Part shown: positions 20,804 through 31,783 of the stretch, piece after piece
Position numbering within the stretch: the stretch's first letter is position 1
How the letters are laid out: each line of letters starts with the position of its first letter
Assembly: GCF_004959935.1 (NCBI RefSeq)
Contig: NZ_SMYN01000003.1
Location: 62,001-126,000, forward strand
Origin: Falsirhodobacter xinxiangensis
GTDB lineage: Bacteria > Pseudomonadota > Alphaproteobacteria > Rhodobacterales > Rhodobacteraceae
Direction: 5' to 3'
Length of the DNA stretch: 64,000 nt
The notes under the pieces: model-generated
Databases searched by the model: none
The model's input: the letters and a program-made list of their open reading frames with translations, nothing else
What the model was told of the DNA's origin: nothing
Translations under genes and position numbers: made by a program

Positions 20804-21636
20804 TGGTTCAGCACGAAGCTGCGCGTGGCGTCGTCGATCTCGGGGCGCTGGCCGAACCAACGCTCGAACCCCGGCGCGGCTTGGTGCAGCAGCATTCCAA
20901 GGCCGTCCACCACCGTGCAGCCCGCGGCCCGTGCCTCGCGCAACAAGGTCGTCTCCAGCGGGTTATAGACGAGGTCGGTCACCAGCGCCTTGGGCGAAAG
21001 GCCGTCCAGCGGGATACGCAGGTCAGGCTTGCCGACCATCCCCAGCGAGGAAGTGTTCACCACGGTCGTCGCATCGTCCAGCATGTTGCCCGCCTGAAGC
21101 CAGTCATGCACGACGACCTTGGCGCCGAAATCCTGACGCAACGCCTCGGCGCGGGCACGGGTGCGGTTGGTGATGCGGATTTCGGTGACGCCTGCGTCCG
21201 AAAGGGCGGCGATGACTGCGCGCGCCGCACCGCCTGCGCCGATCAGCGCGGCGGGGCCGGATTTCGGGTCCCAGTCCGGCGCGCGCTGGCGCAGGTTCTC
21301 CATGAAGCCGAAGCCGTCGGTATTGTCGGCATGGATCTTGCCGTCGGGCAGGAAGATCAGCGTGTTCACAGCGCCGATCAGCGCGGCGCGGTCGGTGACG
21401 ATATCGGCAAGACGCAGCGCGGCTTCTTTGTGGGGGACCGTCACGTTGACGCCGCGGAAACCTAATTTCGGCAGGGTGCGCAGGGTTTCGGCCAGATCGT
21501 CCGGCGCGATGTCCATCGGGATGTAGTGACCTTTGATCCCATAACGGCTCAGCCAATATCCGTGCAGCCGGGGCGAAAGGCTGTGCGCGATGGGCGATCC
21601 GATGACACCGGCGAGGGGGATTTTCGGCAGGCTCAT
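20800..21636 (-). CDS. aroE: Shikimate dehydrogenase
   Basis: A 278-residue NADP enzyme of the shikimate pathway. The catalytic Lys70 is in NVTVPHK and Asp107 in ADNTDGFGF; the NADP loop is GAGGAARAV. Substrate-binding SLSPRLHG is at 19-26. It overlaps both neighbours by 4 bases (ATGA type). Confidence 0.95.
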
Positions 21637-22226
21637 GCGGGGATGAACCCCCGGTTGCCCATCCAGGCCAAGAGCGGAAGAAGCGGAAGGCCGAGGATCG
21701 TGAAATGATCGCCGCGAATGTCGATGAACAGGCGCACTCCCTCCTCCTCCAGTTTATAGCCGCCGACGGAATGGCGGATGCTGTCCCAGTTGCGGGCGAT
21801 ATAGTCGTCGAGAAAGTCGTCCGAGAAACGGCCCATCGTCAGCCGCGCCTCGGACACATGGCGCCAGACCGGCTCGGCTTTTTCATAGGCGACGACGGCG
21901 GAAATCAGGGTGTGGGTCTGCCCGCGCAGCGCGCGCAGGTGATCGCGCGCCTGATCGGGGGTTTCGGGCTTGCCCCAAACCTTTCCTTCGAAGGCCAGAA
22001 CCTGATCGCAGCCCAGGACCAACGCGTCGGGGTGCTTTTCAGCCAGCTTGCGCGCCTTCATCTCGGCCAGCGTATCGGCGATGTCGCGGGGTTTGGCGGC
22101 TTCGGCCTCAAGCGAGAGGCGGATGGCTTCTTCGTCGATGCGCGCGGGAAGCGCCTCGGCCCTGACGCCAGCCGCTTGCAGCAGCTTCAGCCGGGTTTCG
22201 GAGGCGGAGGCGAGGATCAGGCGCAT
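21633..22226 (-). CDS. maf: Maf-family nucleotide pyrophosphatase
   Basis: A 197-residue Maf protein. [13 protein letters not shown] near the N terminus, [24 protein letters not shown] and [12 protein letters not shown] match the YceF-like branch (7-methyl-GTP pyrophosphatase) better than the dTTP/UTP branch, although this is an inference from motif wording. First gene of the minus operon; its start codon (22224-22226) borders the proposed replication origin. Confidence 0.92.
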
Positions 22227-22235
22227 GGAGGACTC

Positions 22236-22244
22236 TGTGGATAA
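22236..22244 (-). promoter_or_regulatory. Perfect DnaA box
   Basis: TGTGGATAA on the plus strand, i.e. TTATCCACA on minus, 10 bases from the maf start codon. It could serve both origin firing and DnaA control of the maf operon. Confidence 0.8.
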
Positions 22245-22509
22245 ACCGGGTGTGTTCCTGCGAAAGGACGGGTGATGGATTGGCCCATGCCCGAGGGATG
22301 GGTTTCGCCACGGGAAAAGTCAAGCTTGGCAGGGCCGGTTATCCCCCTGTGGACCCGGCGGCAGCGCAGGGATGGAAAACCTCTTTCTCACCAGCTTGCC
22401 AGCAGATTCTCCCTCCGGTTCTCCACATACGGCCCATGACGCTGGCTGGCCTTGTTTTGTTGGCGATTTTTGTGCTTGCACCCTGATTAACGAAGGTTAA
22501 CCCCAAGAG

Positions 22510-22518
22510 TTATCCACA
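22510..22518 (+). promoter_or_regulatory. Perfect DnaA box
   Basis: TTATCCACA, matching the 9-base consensus exactly, about 70 bases before the pyrimidine-rich stretch and directly beside the TTAA-N6-TTAAC element. Confidence 0.8.
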
Positions 22519-22587
22519 GGTCGCAGGCGGTGGGAAAACCTGCGGGAAGATTCAGAGTCTTCCGATTTCCACAGGCCCTACTTCACC

Positions 22588-22620
22588 ATCTATCTTCTCT
22601 TTAATCTTTTCTTTTCTTAT
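22588..22620. other. Candidate DNA unwinding element
   Basis: A GC-poor, strongly pyrimidine-biased run (TCTATCTTCTC, then TTTAATCTTTTC) just before hemJ, the most AT-rich stretch in the intergenic region and within 110 bases of several DnaA boxes. It is assigned by composition and position only. Confidence 0.5.
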
Positions 22621-22631
22621 GAAGACTGCCC

Positions 22632-23069
22632 ATGACAGACCTTCTGATAAGCCTTTACCCTTGGACGAAAGCGTTTCACGTGATTGCCGTCATCGCGTGG
22701 ATGGCGGGGCTGTTCTATTTGCCCCGGCTGTTCGTCTATCACGCCGAAGCAAGCCCGCCGGAGGAGCTTTTCCGCACGATGGAGCGTCGTTTGCTGCGTG
22801 CGATCATGAATCCGGCGATGATCGCGACGTGGATCTTTGGGCTTTGTCTGGTTTTCACACCCGGGATCGTCGATTGGTCGCAGGTTTGGCCATGGACGAA
22901 GGCTGTGGCGGTGCTGGCGATGACTTGGTTCCATCATTGGCTGGGAAAACGCCGCAAAGACTTCGAAAAAGGCACGAATTCCGTGACGGGTCGGCAGTTT
23001 CGGATGATGAACGAGCTGCCGACGCTGCTCATGATCGTCATCGTGATTTCGGTGATCGTCCGGTTCTGA
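22632..23069 (+). CDS. hemJ: Protoporphyrinogen IX oxidase HemJ
   Basis: A 145-residue four-helix membrane protein with the HemJ pattern: YPWTKAFHVIAVIAWMAGLFYLPRLFVYH (conserved His and the PRLFVYH stretch), NPAMIATWIFGL, and RRKDFEKGTNS with RMMNELPTLLM near the end. It oxidises protoporphyrinogen IX to protoporphyrin IX in haem synthesis. First gene to the right of the proposed origin and co-directional with rho. Confidence 0.92.
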   Translation: MTDLLISLYPWTKAFHVIAVIAWMAGLFYLPRLFVYHAEASPPEELFRTMERRLLRAIMNPAMIATWIFGLCLVFTPGIVDWSQVWPWTKAVAVLAMTWFHHWLGKRRKDFEKGTNSVTGRQFRMMNELPTLLMIVIVISVIVRF

Positions 23070-25770: not shown

Positions 25771-25786
25771 TGTTTCACGTGAAACA
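25771..25786. promoter_or_regulatory. parS centromere site 1
   Basis: TGTTTCACGTGAAACA, a perfect 16-base palindrome identical to the canonical bacterial parS. It sits between the mnmE stop and the mnmG start and includes the mnmG GTG start codon. ParB should load here; parA and parB are 2.4-3.3 kb downstream and the proposed origin is 3.1 kb upstream. Confidence 0.93.
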
Positions 25787-27644: not shown

Positions 27645-28231
27645 ATGTTTCACGTGAAACATCGCACCGCTTGGCTGAATTTTCCGCCTTGGCGATCAAA
27701 TGGAATCCGGCGATCAATCTGATCGCCAGGTCAACCGTTTCGGACATTGAACAGCGGCACATTCAGGACTCCGCTCAACTTTACACATTGGCCGGTGATT
27801 TCGATCACTGGGTTGATCTGGGTAGTGGGGGAGGTTTTCCCGGCATCGTGGTTGCAATCATTGCGAAAGAGCGCAATCCGGCGGCTCGTATCACGCTGGT
27901 GGAAAGCGACGCCCGGAAATGCGAATTTCTGCGCCATTCCAGCCGGATTTTGGGCCTGAACACGCAGATACTGAATGCTCGTATCGAAGCTGTTGACCCC
28001 CTGAACGCCGATGTGGTTTCCGCGCGCGCTTTGGCATCCCTTGATCAGCTTTGTGGTTTTTTTGTGCGCCATCGAGCGGCACGAGGGAAGGGGCTATTTC
28101 CTAAGGGAGCCACTGCTTCGCACGAACTGGAAGCAGCGCAGAAGACGTGGAATCTGGACTATCGAAGCCATGAGAGTATAACCGACCCGTCCGCCGTCAT
28201 TCTTGAAGTGAAAGATCTGTCCCGTGTCTGA
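27641..28231 (+). CDS. rsmG: 16S rRNA (guanine527-N7)-methyltransferase RsmG (GidB)
   Basis: A 196-residue SAM methyltransferase with [10 protein letters not shown] at 59-68 as the SAM site, and PFAM-typical ARALASL and LFPKG segments. It methylates G527 of 16S rRNA; loss gives low-level streptomycin resistance in many bacteria. The start is GTG at 27641, overlapping the mnmG stop. Codons 3-7 (residues V-S-R-E-T) are written by a perfect parS site. The 3' end overlaps parA by 8 bases. Confidence 0.94.
27646..27661. promoter_or_regulatory. parS centromere site 2
   Basis: A second perfect TGTTTCACGTGAAACA, 1,875 bases from the first and 563 bases before parA. It lies wholly within the rsmG coding sequence, encoding residues 3-7, so it is under both coding and ParB-binding constraint. 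Confidence 0.93.
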
Positions 28232-29042
28232 ACCGCTTCCCAAATCCGCGCCAAGGATCATCGCGATTGCAAACCAGAAGGGCGGGGTAGGGAAGACCAC
28301 GACCGCAATAAACCTCGCCGCCGCACTGTGCGAGAAGGGCTACGGAACGCTTGTCGTCGATCTCGATCCGCAAGGAAACGCATCGACGGGCCTTGGAATC
28401 GAGGCTGCGCAGCGAAATCTGACTACATTCGATCTGTTGCTCGAGGGTGCAACGTTGGATCAGGTGATCCGCCCCACCAAGATCGAAGGCCTATTTGTCT
28501 GCCCTGCCAACGCCGACCTGTCCTCGGCGGATATGGAGCTGATCGCGAATGAAAAACGCAGCTTTCTGCTCCGCGATGCGTTGCGGGACAAGGATGTCAC
28601 GCTCCCTCCGCTGGATTTCATTCTGATCGACTGCCCGCCTTCGCTGAGCCTTCTGACGATCAACGCTCTCGTCGCGGCGGATGCGGTTCTTGTCCCGCTT
28701 CAAAGCGAATTCTTCGCGCTGGAAGGGTTGTCTCAGCTGATGCTCACCGTGCGCGAGGTGCGTCAGAGTGCCAATACCGACCTGCGGATCGAAGGCATTG
28801 TGCTGACAATGTATGACAAGCGCAACAACCTGTCGCAGCTTGTTGAAAATGACGCGCGCCAGACCTTGGGCGAGCTTGTTTTTGCGACGATCATCCCGCG
28901 CAATGTTCGGGTCAGCGAGGCGCCTTCGTTCTCTATGCCGGTCCTGTCCTATGACAGCACATCCAAGGGCAGCGAAGCTTACCGCGCCCTTGCGCAAGAA
29001 ATAACCGCGCGCAGACGCGTAAAGGAACAGGAAAGAGCGTGA
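28224..29042 (+). CDS. parA: Chromosome-partitioning ATPase ParA
   Basis: A 272-residue deviant-Walker ATPase. KGGVGKT at 19-25, VDLDPQGNAS and DFILIDCPPSL are hallmarks. It drives segregation of ParB-parS complexes after origin duplication. The start codon is GTG (28224-28226), overlapping rsmG; translation coupling to rsmG is likely. It has no N-terminal helix-turn-helix, as expected for chromosomal (type Ib-size) ParA. Confidence 0.95.
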   Translation: MSEPLPKSAPRIIAIANQKGGVGKTTTAINLAAALCEKGYGTLVVDLDPQGNASTGLGIEAAQRNLTTFDLLLEGATLDQVIRPTKIEGLFVCPANADLSSADMELIANEKRSFLLRDALRDKDVTLPPLDFILIDCPPSLSLLTINALVAADAVLVPLQSEFFALEGLSQLMLTVREVRQSANTDLRIEGIVLTMYDKRNNLSQLVENDARQTLGELVFATIIPRNVRVSEAPSFSMPVLSYDSTSKGSEAYRALAQEITARRRVKEQERA

Positions 29043-29926
29043 TGGACCGCAAGGAACGCAAAGGATTGGGCCGCGGGCTGTCGGCTTTGATGGCAGATAT
29101 CAACGTCAGCGCTCCGACGGAAAGCGGCCGCCGCGCCGACATGACGGTTCCGATCGAAAAGATCGTGCCGAATCCCGACCAGCCGCGCCGCGAGTTCGCG
29201 CCAGAGGCATTGAACGACCTTGCTGCGTCCATCCGGCAGAAGGGCGTGATCCAGCCGCTGATCGTGCGTCCGATCCCGCACAGCGACCGATACGAGATCG
29301 TCGCGGGCGAGCGGCGCTGGCGGGCCTCGCAACTGGCGCAACTTCATGATCTCCCGGTCGTAATTCGTGATTTCGACGATACCGAAGTTCTGGAAGTCGC
29401 GATCATCGAAAACATCCAGCGCGCCGATCTGAACCCGGTCGAGGAGGCCATGGGTTTCCGCCAGTTGATGGAACGCTTCGGCCATACACAGGAAAAGCTT
29501 GCGGAGGCGCTTTCCAAAAGCCGCTCTCACATAGCTAACCTATTGAGATTGCTGAATCTTCCCGACGATGTGCAGGCGATGCTGCGCGAAGGAAAGCTTT
29601 CCGCCGGCCACGCGCGCGCGCTGATCACATCGGAAAACGCATCCGAGCTTGCGCGAAAGGTCGTCGAAAAGGGCCTCTCCGTCCGCGAGACCGAGAAGCT
29701 TGCGAAAGGTGCCGCCCCGTCCAAAGCGCGGGGTGCGCGGGCTGAAAAAGACGCCGACACACGCGCGCTGGAGGGCGATCTTTCCGCAAATCTGGGCATG
29801 GAGGTTCAGATCGAACACCTTGCCGGCGGAGAGAGCGGTGTGCTGTCCATCCGCTACAAGACGCTGGAAGATCTGGACAACCTCTGTCGGGTGCTGACCC
29901 AGATCAATCAGGGCGCGTCCAGATAA
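29042..29926 (+). CDS. parB: Chromosome-partitioning protein ParB
   Basis: A 294-residue CTP-dependent DNA clamp that loads at parS. The start GLGRGLSALM is the ParA-interaction end; GERRWRASQLA and ENIQRADLNPVEEA are the CTP-binding ParB/Srx motifs; a helix-turn-helix follows (QEKLAEALSKSRSHIANLLRLL). The ATG at 29042 overlaps the parA stop by one base; a GTG at 29039 is also in frame. The perfect parS pair upstream is its expected target. The 3' end overlaps the convergent YbaN-like gene by 23 bases. Confidence 0.95.
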   Translation: MDRKERKGLGRGLSALMADINVSAPTESGRRADMTVPIEKIVPNPDQPRREFAPEALNDLAASIRQKGVIQPLIVRPIPHSDRYEIVAGERRWRASQLAQLHDLPVVIRDFDDTEVLEVAIIENIQRADLNPVEEAMGFRQLMERFGHTQEKLAEALSKSRSHIANLLRLLNLPDDVQAMLREGKLSAGHARALITSENASELARKVVEKGLSVRETEKLAKGAAPSKARGARAEKDADTRALEGDLSANLGMEVQIEHLAGGESGVLSIRYKTLEDLDNLCRVLTQINQGASR

Positions 29927-31405: not shown

Positions 31406-31783
31406 TTACCCCTTGAAGGCCGTGACGTCGATCTCGACCAGCATTTCCGGTTTGATCAGGCCAGCCACGACCATCGTTGCGGCGGGGCGAACGTCCGCGA
31501 AAACCTCGCCCAACGCAGGGACCAGATCATCGACCAGCGCCGCATCGGTCACGGTGTATTGCACCCGCACCACGTCGGCGAAGGAGAACCCACCCTCGGC
31601 CAGCGCGCGCCCGATGGTCGCAAAGCAGCCCCGCGCCTGATCGGCAATGCCTTCGGGCATGACGCCATCGACATAGCCGGTGGTGCCCGAAACGAAGCAC
31701 CAGTCGCCTTTAACGACCGCACGGGAATATCCCATTTTCGCCTCGAAGGGCGATCCAGAGGAGATGAGTTTCACGCGAAACAT
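31406..31783 (-). CDS. RidA-family enamine/imine deaminase
   Basis: A 125-residue RidA/YjgF-family protein, starting [24 protein letters not shown] with VSGTTGY and a C-terminal ATMVVAGLIKPEMLVEIDVTA. Canonical RidA hydrolyses the 2-aminoacrylate released by threonine/serine dehydratases; IlvA lies elsewhere in this window. The catalytic Arg (as in VRVQYTV / VFADVRPA) is visible, so deaminase activity is plausible. The start region overlaps rdgB by 13 bases and also forms a 14/16 match to parS. Confidence 0.88.
   Translation of the reverse strand: MFRVKLISSGSPFEAKMGYSRAVVKGDWCFVSGTTGYVDGVMPEGIADQARGCFATIGRALAEGGFSFADVVRVQYTVTDAALVDDLVPALGEVFADVRPAATMVVAGLIKPEMLVEIDVTAFKG

Follow-up and report, generated by a model that had tools for sequence, protein, structure and literature searches.

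Is the 405-base gap bounded by the starts of maf and hemJ the chromosomal origin of replication (oriC) of this genome and, if so, why does hemJ stand where the Caulobacter origin has hemE? Both points had been raised by a reading made from the letters of the sequence only. We examined them in the window, i.e., the whole 64,000-nucleotide stretch of DNA analyzed here (G000:C23:62001-126000), which belongs to a genome of 3.97 Mb in 80 contigs; judged by HemJ among the best 80 of 580 relatives, its nearest named relative is Falsirhodobacter flavus (Paracoccaceae; listed as 'Cereibacter flavus', L054), at 97% identity. The neighbors originally named, maf-aroE-coaE-dnaQ on one side and hemJ-rho-mnmEG-parAB on the other, are borne out: Pfam supports ten of the flanking genes (maf, aroE, coaE, an RNase_T exonuclease, hemJ, rho, mnmE, rsmG, parA and parB), with dnaQ placed as the RNase_T exonuclease and no finer, and mnmG identified from its open reading frame. 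As had been said of the close neighbors, all named flanking genes are directed away from the gap.

The two perfect DnaA boxes, the 8/9 box and the weaker boxes reported for the gap are all present at the positions claimed (Table 1), with 7/9 matches at 22339, 22497 and 22565. The number of boxes in the window is unexceptional: six with at most one mismatch occur in 64 kb versus 3.55 expected, and 17 of 100 shuffles reach six. Genome-wide, there are 14 perfect boxes and 227 with at most one mismatch, versus 18 and 309, respectively, for a reversed-motif control. Their clustering in the gap is unusual, though not unique in the genome; given 14 perfect sites in 3.97 Mb, only about 0.013 perfect pairs would be expected within 275 bp. 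Because box number alone is uninformative and clustering is not unique, we turned to conservation among relatives: The boxes of one genome would not prove an origin, since other box groups exist in the same genome, but their conservation does.

Loci containing HemJ were drawn from whole genomes (61 searched, 52 with a match, the best 30 of these 52 used) and from named contigs (the best 80 of 580 relatives). Divergent maf and hemJ genes surround a gap in 106 of these 110 loci (L033, L038, L043 and L062 are without a maf match), and 102 of the 106 gaps are 380-520 bp long (the lengths of L036, L040, L044 and L110 led to their exclusion). The 102 gaps, which include the window's own copy (L015) as well as L016 and L054, a pair of identical gaps, together comprise 42,807 bases and hold 302 boxes with at most one mismatch, compared to a mean of 9.1 and a maximum of 15 in 20 dinucleotide shuffles; for perfect boxes, the count is 54 against a mean of 0.3 and a maximum of 2, all from loci that are related to one another and therefore are not independent trials. 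Three or more boxes with at most one mismatch are present in 66 of the 102 gaps, and only one gap has none. Within the 88 loci that were already oriented, 37,593 gap bases contain 253 boxes with at most one mismatch, 46 of them perfect, versus 127 and 0 in 780,414 bases of flanks, which are mostly coding.

From the alignment of the gaps we chose eight recurring box positions, A to H. The window keeps boxes A, D, E and H; box B is weak, and C, F and G are degenerate. The mean frequency of the top letter is 0.68 in the box columns and 0.67 in the unwinding region (22574-22621), as against 0.42 in the rest of the gap. When the window is compared with its closest relative, 65 of 72 positions are identical in the boxes and 45 of 48 in the unwinding region, versus 227 of 285 elsewhere.

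Table 1. Features of the gap and its surroundings, in window positions; fractions out of 102 refer to aligned rows of homologous gaps
Feature	Position	Strand	Basis or conservation
maf, left flank	21633..22226	-	Pfam PF02545
Probable oriC, intergenic between divergent maf and hemJ	22227..22631		Homologous maf-gap-hemJ arrangement and DnaA-box enrichment
DnaA box A, perfect TTATCCACA, just upstream of maf	22236..22244	-	≤1 mismatch in 43/102, ≤2 mismatches in 54/102
DnaA box B, weak, GGGTCCACA, 3 mismatches	22348..22356	-	CCCCTGTGGA block conserved in alignment; ≤2 mismatches in 31/102
DnaA box C position, degenerate in window (best match 3 mismatches)	22371..22379	-	≤2 mismatches in 37/102
DnaA box D, TTCTCCACA, 8/9	22419..22427	+	≤2 mismatches in 64/102
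IHF-like TAAnnnnTTGATA block position, lost in window	22445..22457		Alignment consensus
DnaA box E, perfect TTATCCACA	22510..22518	+	≤2 mismatches in 56/102
DnaA box F position, degenerate in window (best match 3 mismatches)	22529..22537	-	≤2 mismatches in 65/102
DnaA box G position, lost in window (best match 5 mismatches)	22555..22563	+	≤2 mismatches in 61/102
DnaA box H, ATTTCCACA, 7/9; proposed anchor of unwinding module	22565..22573	+	≤2 mismatches in 54/102
C-led triplet ladder CTA CTT CAC CAT CTA	22578..22592	+	Five successive C[AT]N triplets, separated from box H by 4 nt
DNA unwinding element, putative; least stable 40 bp of window	22588..22627		0/63,961 segments of this length less stable
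hemJ (UPF0093), right flank	22632..23069	+	Pfam PF03653
parS, perfect, by mnmG start (overlaps or abuts)	25771..25786		Match to TGTTTCACGTGAAACA
parS, perfect, in rsmG start (overlaps or abuts)	27646..27661		Match to TGTTTCACGTGAAACA
parA	28224..29042	+	Pfam
parB	29039..29926	+	Pfam

The AT- and pyrimidine-rich stretch that had been remarked on beside the boxes contains the least stable 40 bp of the window, in the right end of the gap, and the least stable 50 bp begins at 22578. Here the window has a ladder of C-led triplets that we regard as candidate deviant DnaA-trios on the opposite strand. The published trio rule calls for three or more NAN trios within 16 bp of a DnaA box (in those sections of PMC8287927 that set it out). 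As re-implemented here, with a single box of at most two mismatches, the rule finds no match on either strand of the window, and the ladder itself fails the demand for a central A (i.e.,.T. on the plus strand). Among the 102 gaps, the rule is satisfied in 58 on the same strand and in 34 on the other, compared to 9 of 345 flank pieces (one strand of the flanks), and many relatives may therefore use ordinary trios.

The C[AT]N pattern was picked after the sequences were seen, and the pyrimidine-rich tract itself favors such runs, for which shuffles control only in part; with these qualifications, 44 of the 102 gaps have a run of four or more C[AT]N triplets within their final 110 nt, as against a shuffle mean of 2.8 (maximum 6), and two other segments of 110 nt within the gap give 1 and 2 of 102. 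On the opposite strand the count is 9 of 102, which is also above its shuffles (mean 0.8, maximum 3). When a run of at least four triplets must be placed within 16 bp of a box, 33 of the 102 gaps qualify; the other strand yields 0, and the flanks yield 1 in 345 pieces. Among outgroup gaps there are C[AT]N triplet runs in the last 150 nt of 6 of 15, versus 0.3 in shuffles. The ladder is often broken: Of the 58 gaps with a CTAC start near hemJ, 33 stay in register over no more than two triplets (one or two), whereas the register extends over four to six in 18.

The basal unwinding system (Pelliciari et al. 2021, PMC8287927), as those sections describe it, resembles the gap in its succession of DnaA box, short GC-rich spacer, period-3 tract and AT-rich DNA. 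It keeps a central A, whereas the window's triplets keep a leading C (3'-G), and its authors suspect that deviant trios without the middle adenine exist (same source). We tentatively propose that alphaproteobacterial origins open via a deviant DnaA-trio, i.e., C-led triplets situated directly behind a DnaA box and ahead of the AT-rich element, an idea that we consider possible though we would sooner bet against it than for it. Under this proposal, C[AT]N would be read as 3'-G-T/A-N on the strand held by DnaA, the protein would use these triplets, and the outer G, not the central A, would be the fixed letter. If the ladder were indeed the opening signal, the trio model would be extended to alphaproteobacteria with a changed letter rule. 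As a separate observation, (CAA)n triplet runs directly precede an AT-rich stretch on the hemE side of the outgroup origins L180 and L187.

The flanking genes tie the gap to a known origin. According to the relevant part of PMC1914354, the origins of Caulobacter crescentus and Rickettsia prowazekii sit between hemE and COG1806, the latter termed PPSR here. The order maf-PPSR, gap, hemE-hemJ is present in six genomes of other families and in one of the same family. Either neighbor can be missing singly, hemE alone being lost from the flank in G007, G021 and G040, and PPSR alone being absent in G023, G044, G056, G058 and G060, and the order maf, gap, hemJ is found in 25 of 37 family genomes, the window's included. 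These 37 contain eight that are unplaced, with hemJ absent or weak in six (G008, G015, G017, G026, G031 and G034) and the genes on different contigs in two (G014 and G029); the 24 genomes of other families divide into 11 with both sides, 5 partial and 8 unplaced. In the 16 gaps that have PPSR and/or hemE as neighbors, there are 46 boxes with at most one mismatch, nine of them perfect, in 8,122 bases, which include some coding bases since the edges were set by family matches; G060 has no box.

A search of the window's genome for PPSR gave no match, and its hemE is on contig C34, adjoining hemC. As such, the gap is best viewed as the same ancestral origin without its two old neighbors, and, because the outgroup gene order matches the hemE-COG1806 arrangement, as the Caulobacter/Rickettsia origin. 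This accounts for the difference in anchor that the sequence-only reading had pointed out, namely hemJ and not hemE on the right flank. The hemE locus was itself considered as an anchor and rejected: It lies beside hemC, with a single 8/9 box in 4 kb. By gene order, and as far as the cited source describes them, Cori of C. crescentus and the R. prowazekii origin share with the gap the same place between divergent conserved blocks (here the maf side and the hemJ side) and the presence of DnaA boxes; they differ in having hemE and COG1806 as flanks, neither of which is an immediate neighbor of the window gap, and the gap also has no consensus CtrA or IHF match. The position of the origin is stable, whereas hemE and PPSR vary as its neighbors; for origin annotation in this group, hemE is therefore an unreliable landmark.

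Sites for IHF and CtrA recur among the relatives. The strict IHF pattern, which we take to be WATCAANNNNTTR, occurs in 15 of the 102 gaps (mononucleotide-shuffle mean, 1.6) and in 3 of 345 flank pieces, and the CtrA consensus TTAA-N7-TTAA in 15 of 102 (shuffle mean, 0.8) and in 0 of 345; when sought in the window's own gap, neither pattern had a match. The sequence TTAA-N6-TTAA at 22487 lacks one base relative to the consensus, and this form is seen in 4 of 102 gaps versus a shuffle mean of 0.8; we therefore claim no CtrA site there. CcrM sites (GANTC) are not enriched, with 71 of the 102 gaps containing one and shuffles averaging 80.

With the parS consensus presumed to be TGTTTCACGTGAAACA, exactly two sites with at most one mismatch are found in the 3.97 Mb, at distances of 3.1 and 5.0 kb from the gap; a third parS-like site, with two mismatches, is at 31767. 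The parAB genes lie near the origin in nearly all of 179 alphaproteobacterial genomes (as given in the pertinent section of PMC8116508), and the origins of 101 Rhodobacteraceae chromosomes have been predicted by Ori-Finder, which chose them by DnaA boxes, the minimum of GC disparity and proximity to parAB (Kopejtka et al. 2019, PMC6699656, in the portions that treat the predictions). An origin at this gap is therefore expected and ordinary. That survey concerns the same bacterial group as ours, but the words 'maf' and 'hemE' are absent from its main text, and the comparison made here is one of description, not of positions. In the literature retrieved on DnaA-trios in alphaproteobacteria and on the Rhodobacter origin, hemJ and maf, a set with few subscription journals, no listed title or abstract opening describes the gap or the triplet pattern, and hemJ is absent from those listed for the Rhodobacter origin. 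What is new here is the explanation by gene order, the box-by-box anatomy and the triplet pattern.

The reversal of GC skew that had been anticipated at the gap holds as a change of sign at or near it, both in relatives and on contig C23, but for the cumulative minimum it holds only to within about 20 kb in this genus. The change from minus to plus appears in chromosome samples of G003, G061 and G009, in finer scans of these three and, at a regional scale, in G006 and on C23. In G003 (same genus, a 2.577-Mb contig), nine samples from 0 to 1.22 Mb are positive and nine from 1.35 to 2.52 Mb negative, and the two samples nearest to the gap, at 2.5588 Mb, read +0.003 and -0.021. Skew in G061 (Pseudooceanicola spongiae, NZ_CP045201) is -0.066 at 3.10 Mb and has turned to +0.071 by 3.22 Mb, the gap being situated near 3.214 Mb; every one of the 10 samples of its plus arm is positive, and 3 of 10 in its minus arm break the pattern. 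For G009, which is of another genus, the sign changes between 3.40 and 3.48 Mb, the gap being at 3.4777 Mb, with 10 of 10 samples negative on the minus arm and 3 of 10 slightly negative on the plus arm. At a fine scale, the sign in G061 changes at the gap, and the minimum lies 79 kb away in the direction of maf, beyond a segment of opposite skew. The cumulative minimum is also on the maf side of the gap in G000 (20.7 kb, at C23:63,758, about window position 1,758), G003 (16.0 kb) and G006 (18.6 kb); in these three genomes, skew has the wrong sign over 16-21 kb toward maf and is mostly negative from 5 to 25 kb toward hemJ. Such similar offsets could mean that the true origin of this genus is 16-21 kb to the maf side, leaving the gap as a relic or a secondary site, but we regard this as very unlikely: No box with at most one mismatch occurs from C23:46,570 to C23:81,962, the boxes and unwinding region of the gap are better kept in the nearest relative than the remainder (see above), and the minimum in G009 is only 1.7 kb from the gap.

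Two further explanations were weighed. If DnaA acted here as a transcription factor, the boxes would form a regulated promoter region for maf and/or hemJ and not an origin, as their place between divergent genes and the occurrence of other boxes upstream of nrdR, rpoD and dnaB might suggest; yet several box positions are conserved along with the unwinding region, the skew changes and parS is close by, and boxes persist in the 16 gaps with PPSR and/or hemE neighbors (G060 apart), all of which renders a promoter function in place of an origin highly improbable. That the contig could be a secondary chromosome or plasmid, with the gap as its origin, is worth considering in Rhodobacterales, which often carry large plasmids, but it scarcely merits belief for a locus whose housekeeping flanks stand in an order seen across the class. 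Moreover, 72,556 plasmid records yielded just three partial matches, each to 15% of the query or less, two of them under hemJ; the third, from a Methylobacterium record of 2.8 Mb, coincides with no annotated feature.

With a probability of about 95%, we therefore consider the gap to be a DnaA-dependent chromosomal oriC, the ortholog of the Caulobacter Cori, from whose flanks PPSR and hemE have gone. The chromosomal origin originally proposed is upheld by the sequence anatomy and conservation of the gap (enrichment of boxes, a conserved box cluster, and an unstable, conserved unwinding region beside it), by the gene order of the outgroups, by the reversal of skew, and by parAB and the parS sites 3-5 kb away. 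We infer the following sequence of events at this locus: DnaA would bind the scattered boxes A to E and assemble rightward to box H, from which its filament would reach and open the conserved triplet/pyrimidine tract at 22578-22627; helicases would then load, and two forks would depart, one to each side, each running with the transcription of the operons that flank the gap. ParB, bound to the two parS sites on the right and acting with ParA, would separate the new origins. An exact origin gives gene dosage, replichores and a minichromosome or vector origin for this genus.

Other groups of DnaA boxes were drawn from the perfect boxes and, for 8/9 boxes, from about 100 of the 227 places listed (into C12), plus C23, and none was retained as an origin candidate. 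Two perfect boxes, 380 bp apart and in opposite orientation (C1:39854/40234; L001:9855/10235), lie in and at the start of a two-domain cold-shock gene, where they might serve DnaA regulation or titration. A perfect pair 2.9 kb apart (C80:124633/127574; L002:7634/10575) is upstream of nrdR and rpoD, and one perfect and two 8/9 boxes within 498 bp on the minus strand (C3:94800-95297; L230:4800-5297) are in and just upstream of dnaB, possibly reflecting control of the helicase by DnaA. Close to the end of a contig, one perfect and one 8/9 box (C1:946/1169) have neighboring genes that, by eye, resemble mobile ones; C7, C10 and C12 carry pairs of 8/9 boxes, which were examined for box content and stability. 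In six other box stretches (a set exclusive of the C80, C23:126843 and C1:39854 groups), the 40-bp segment of lowest stability has -46.3 to -52.4 kcal/mol, versus -43.4 kcal/mol in the gap. Three 8/9 boxes at C23:126843-127838 lie no more than 2 kb from a gene judged by eye to be integrase-like (L007:2774-3736), which marks a probable genomic island just past the right end of the window.
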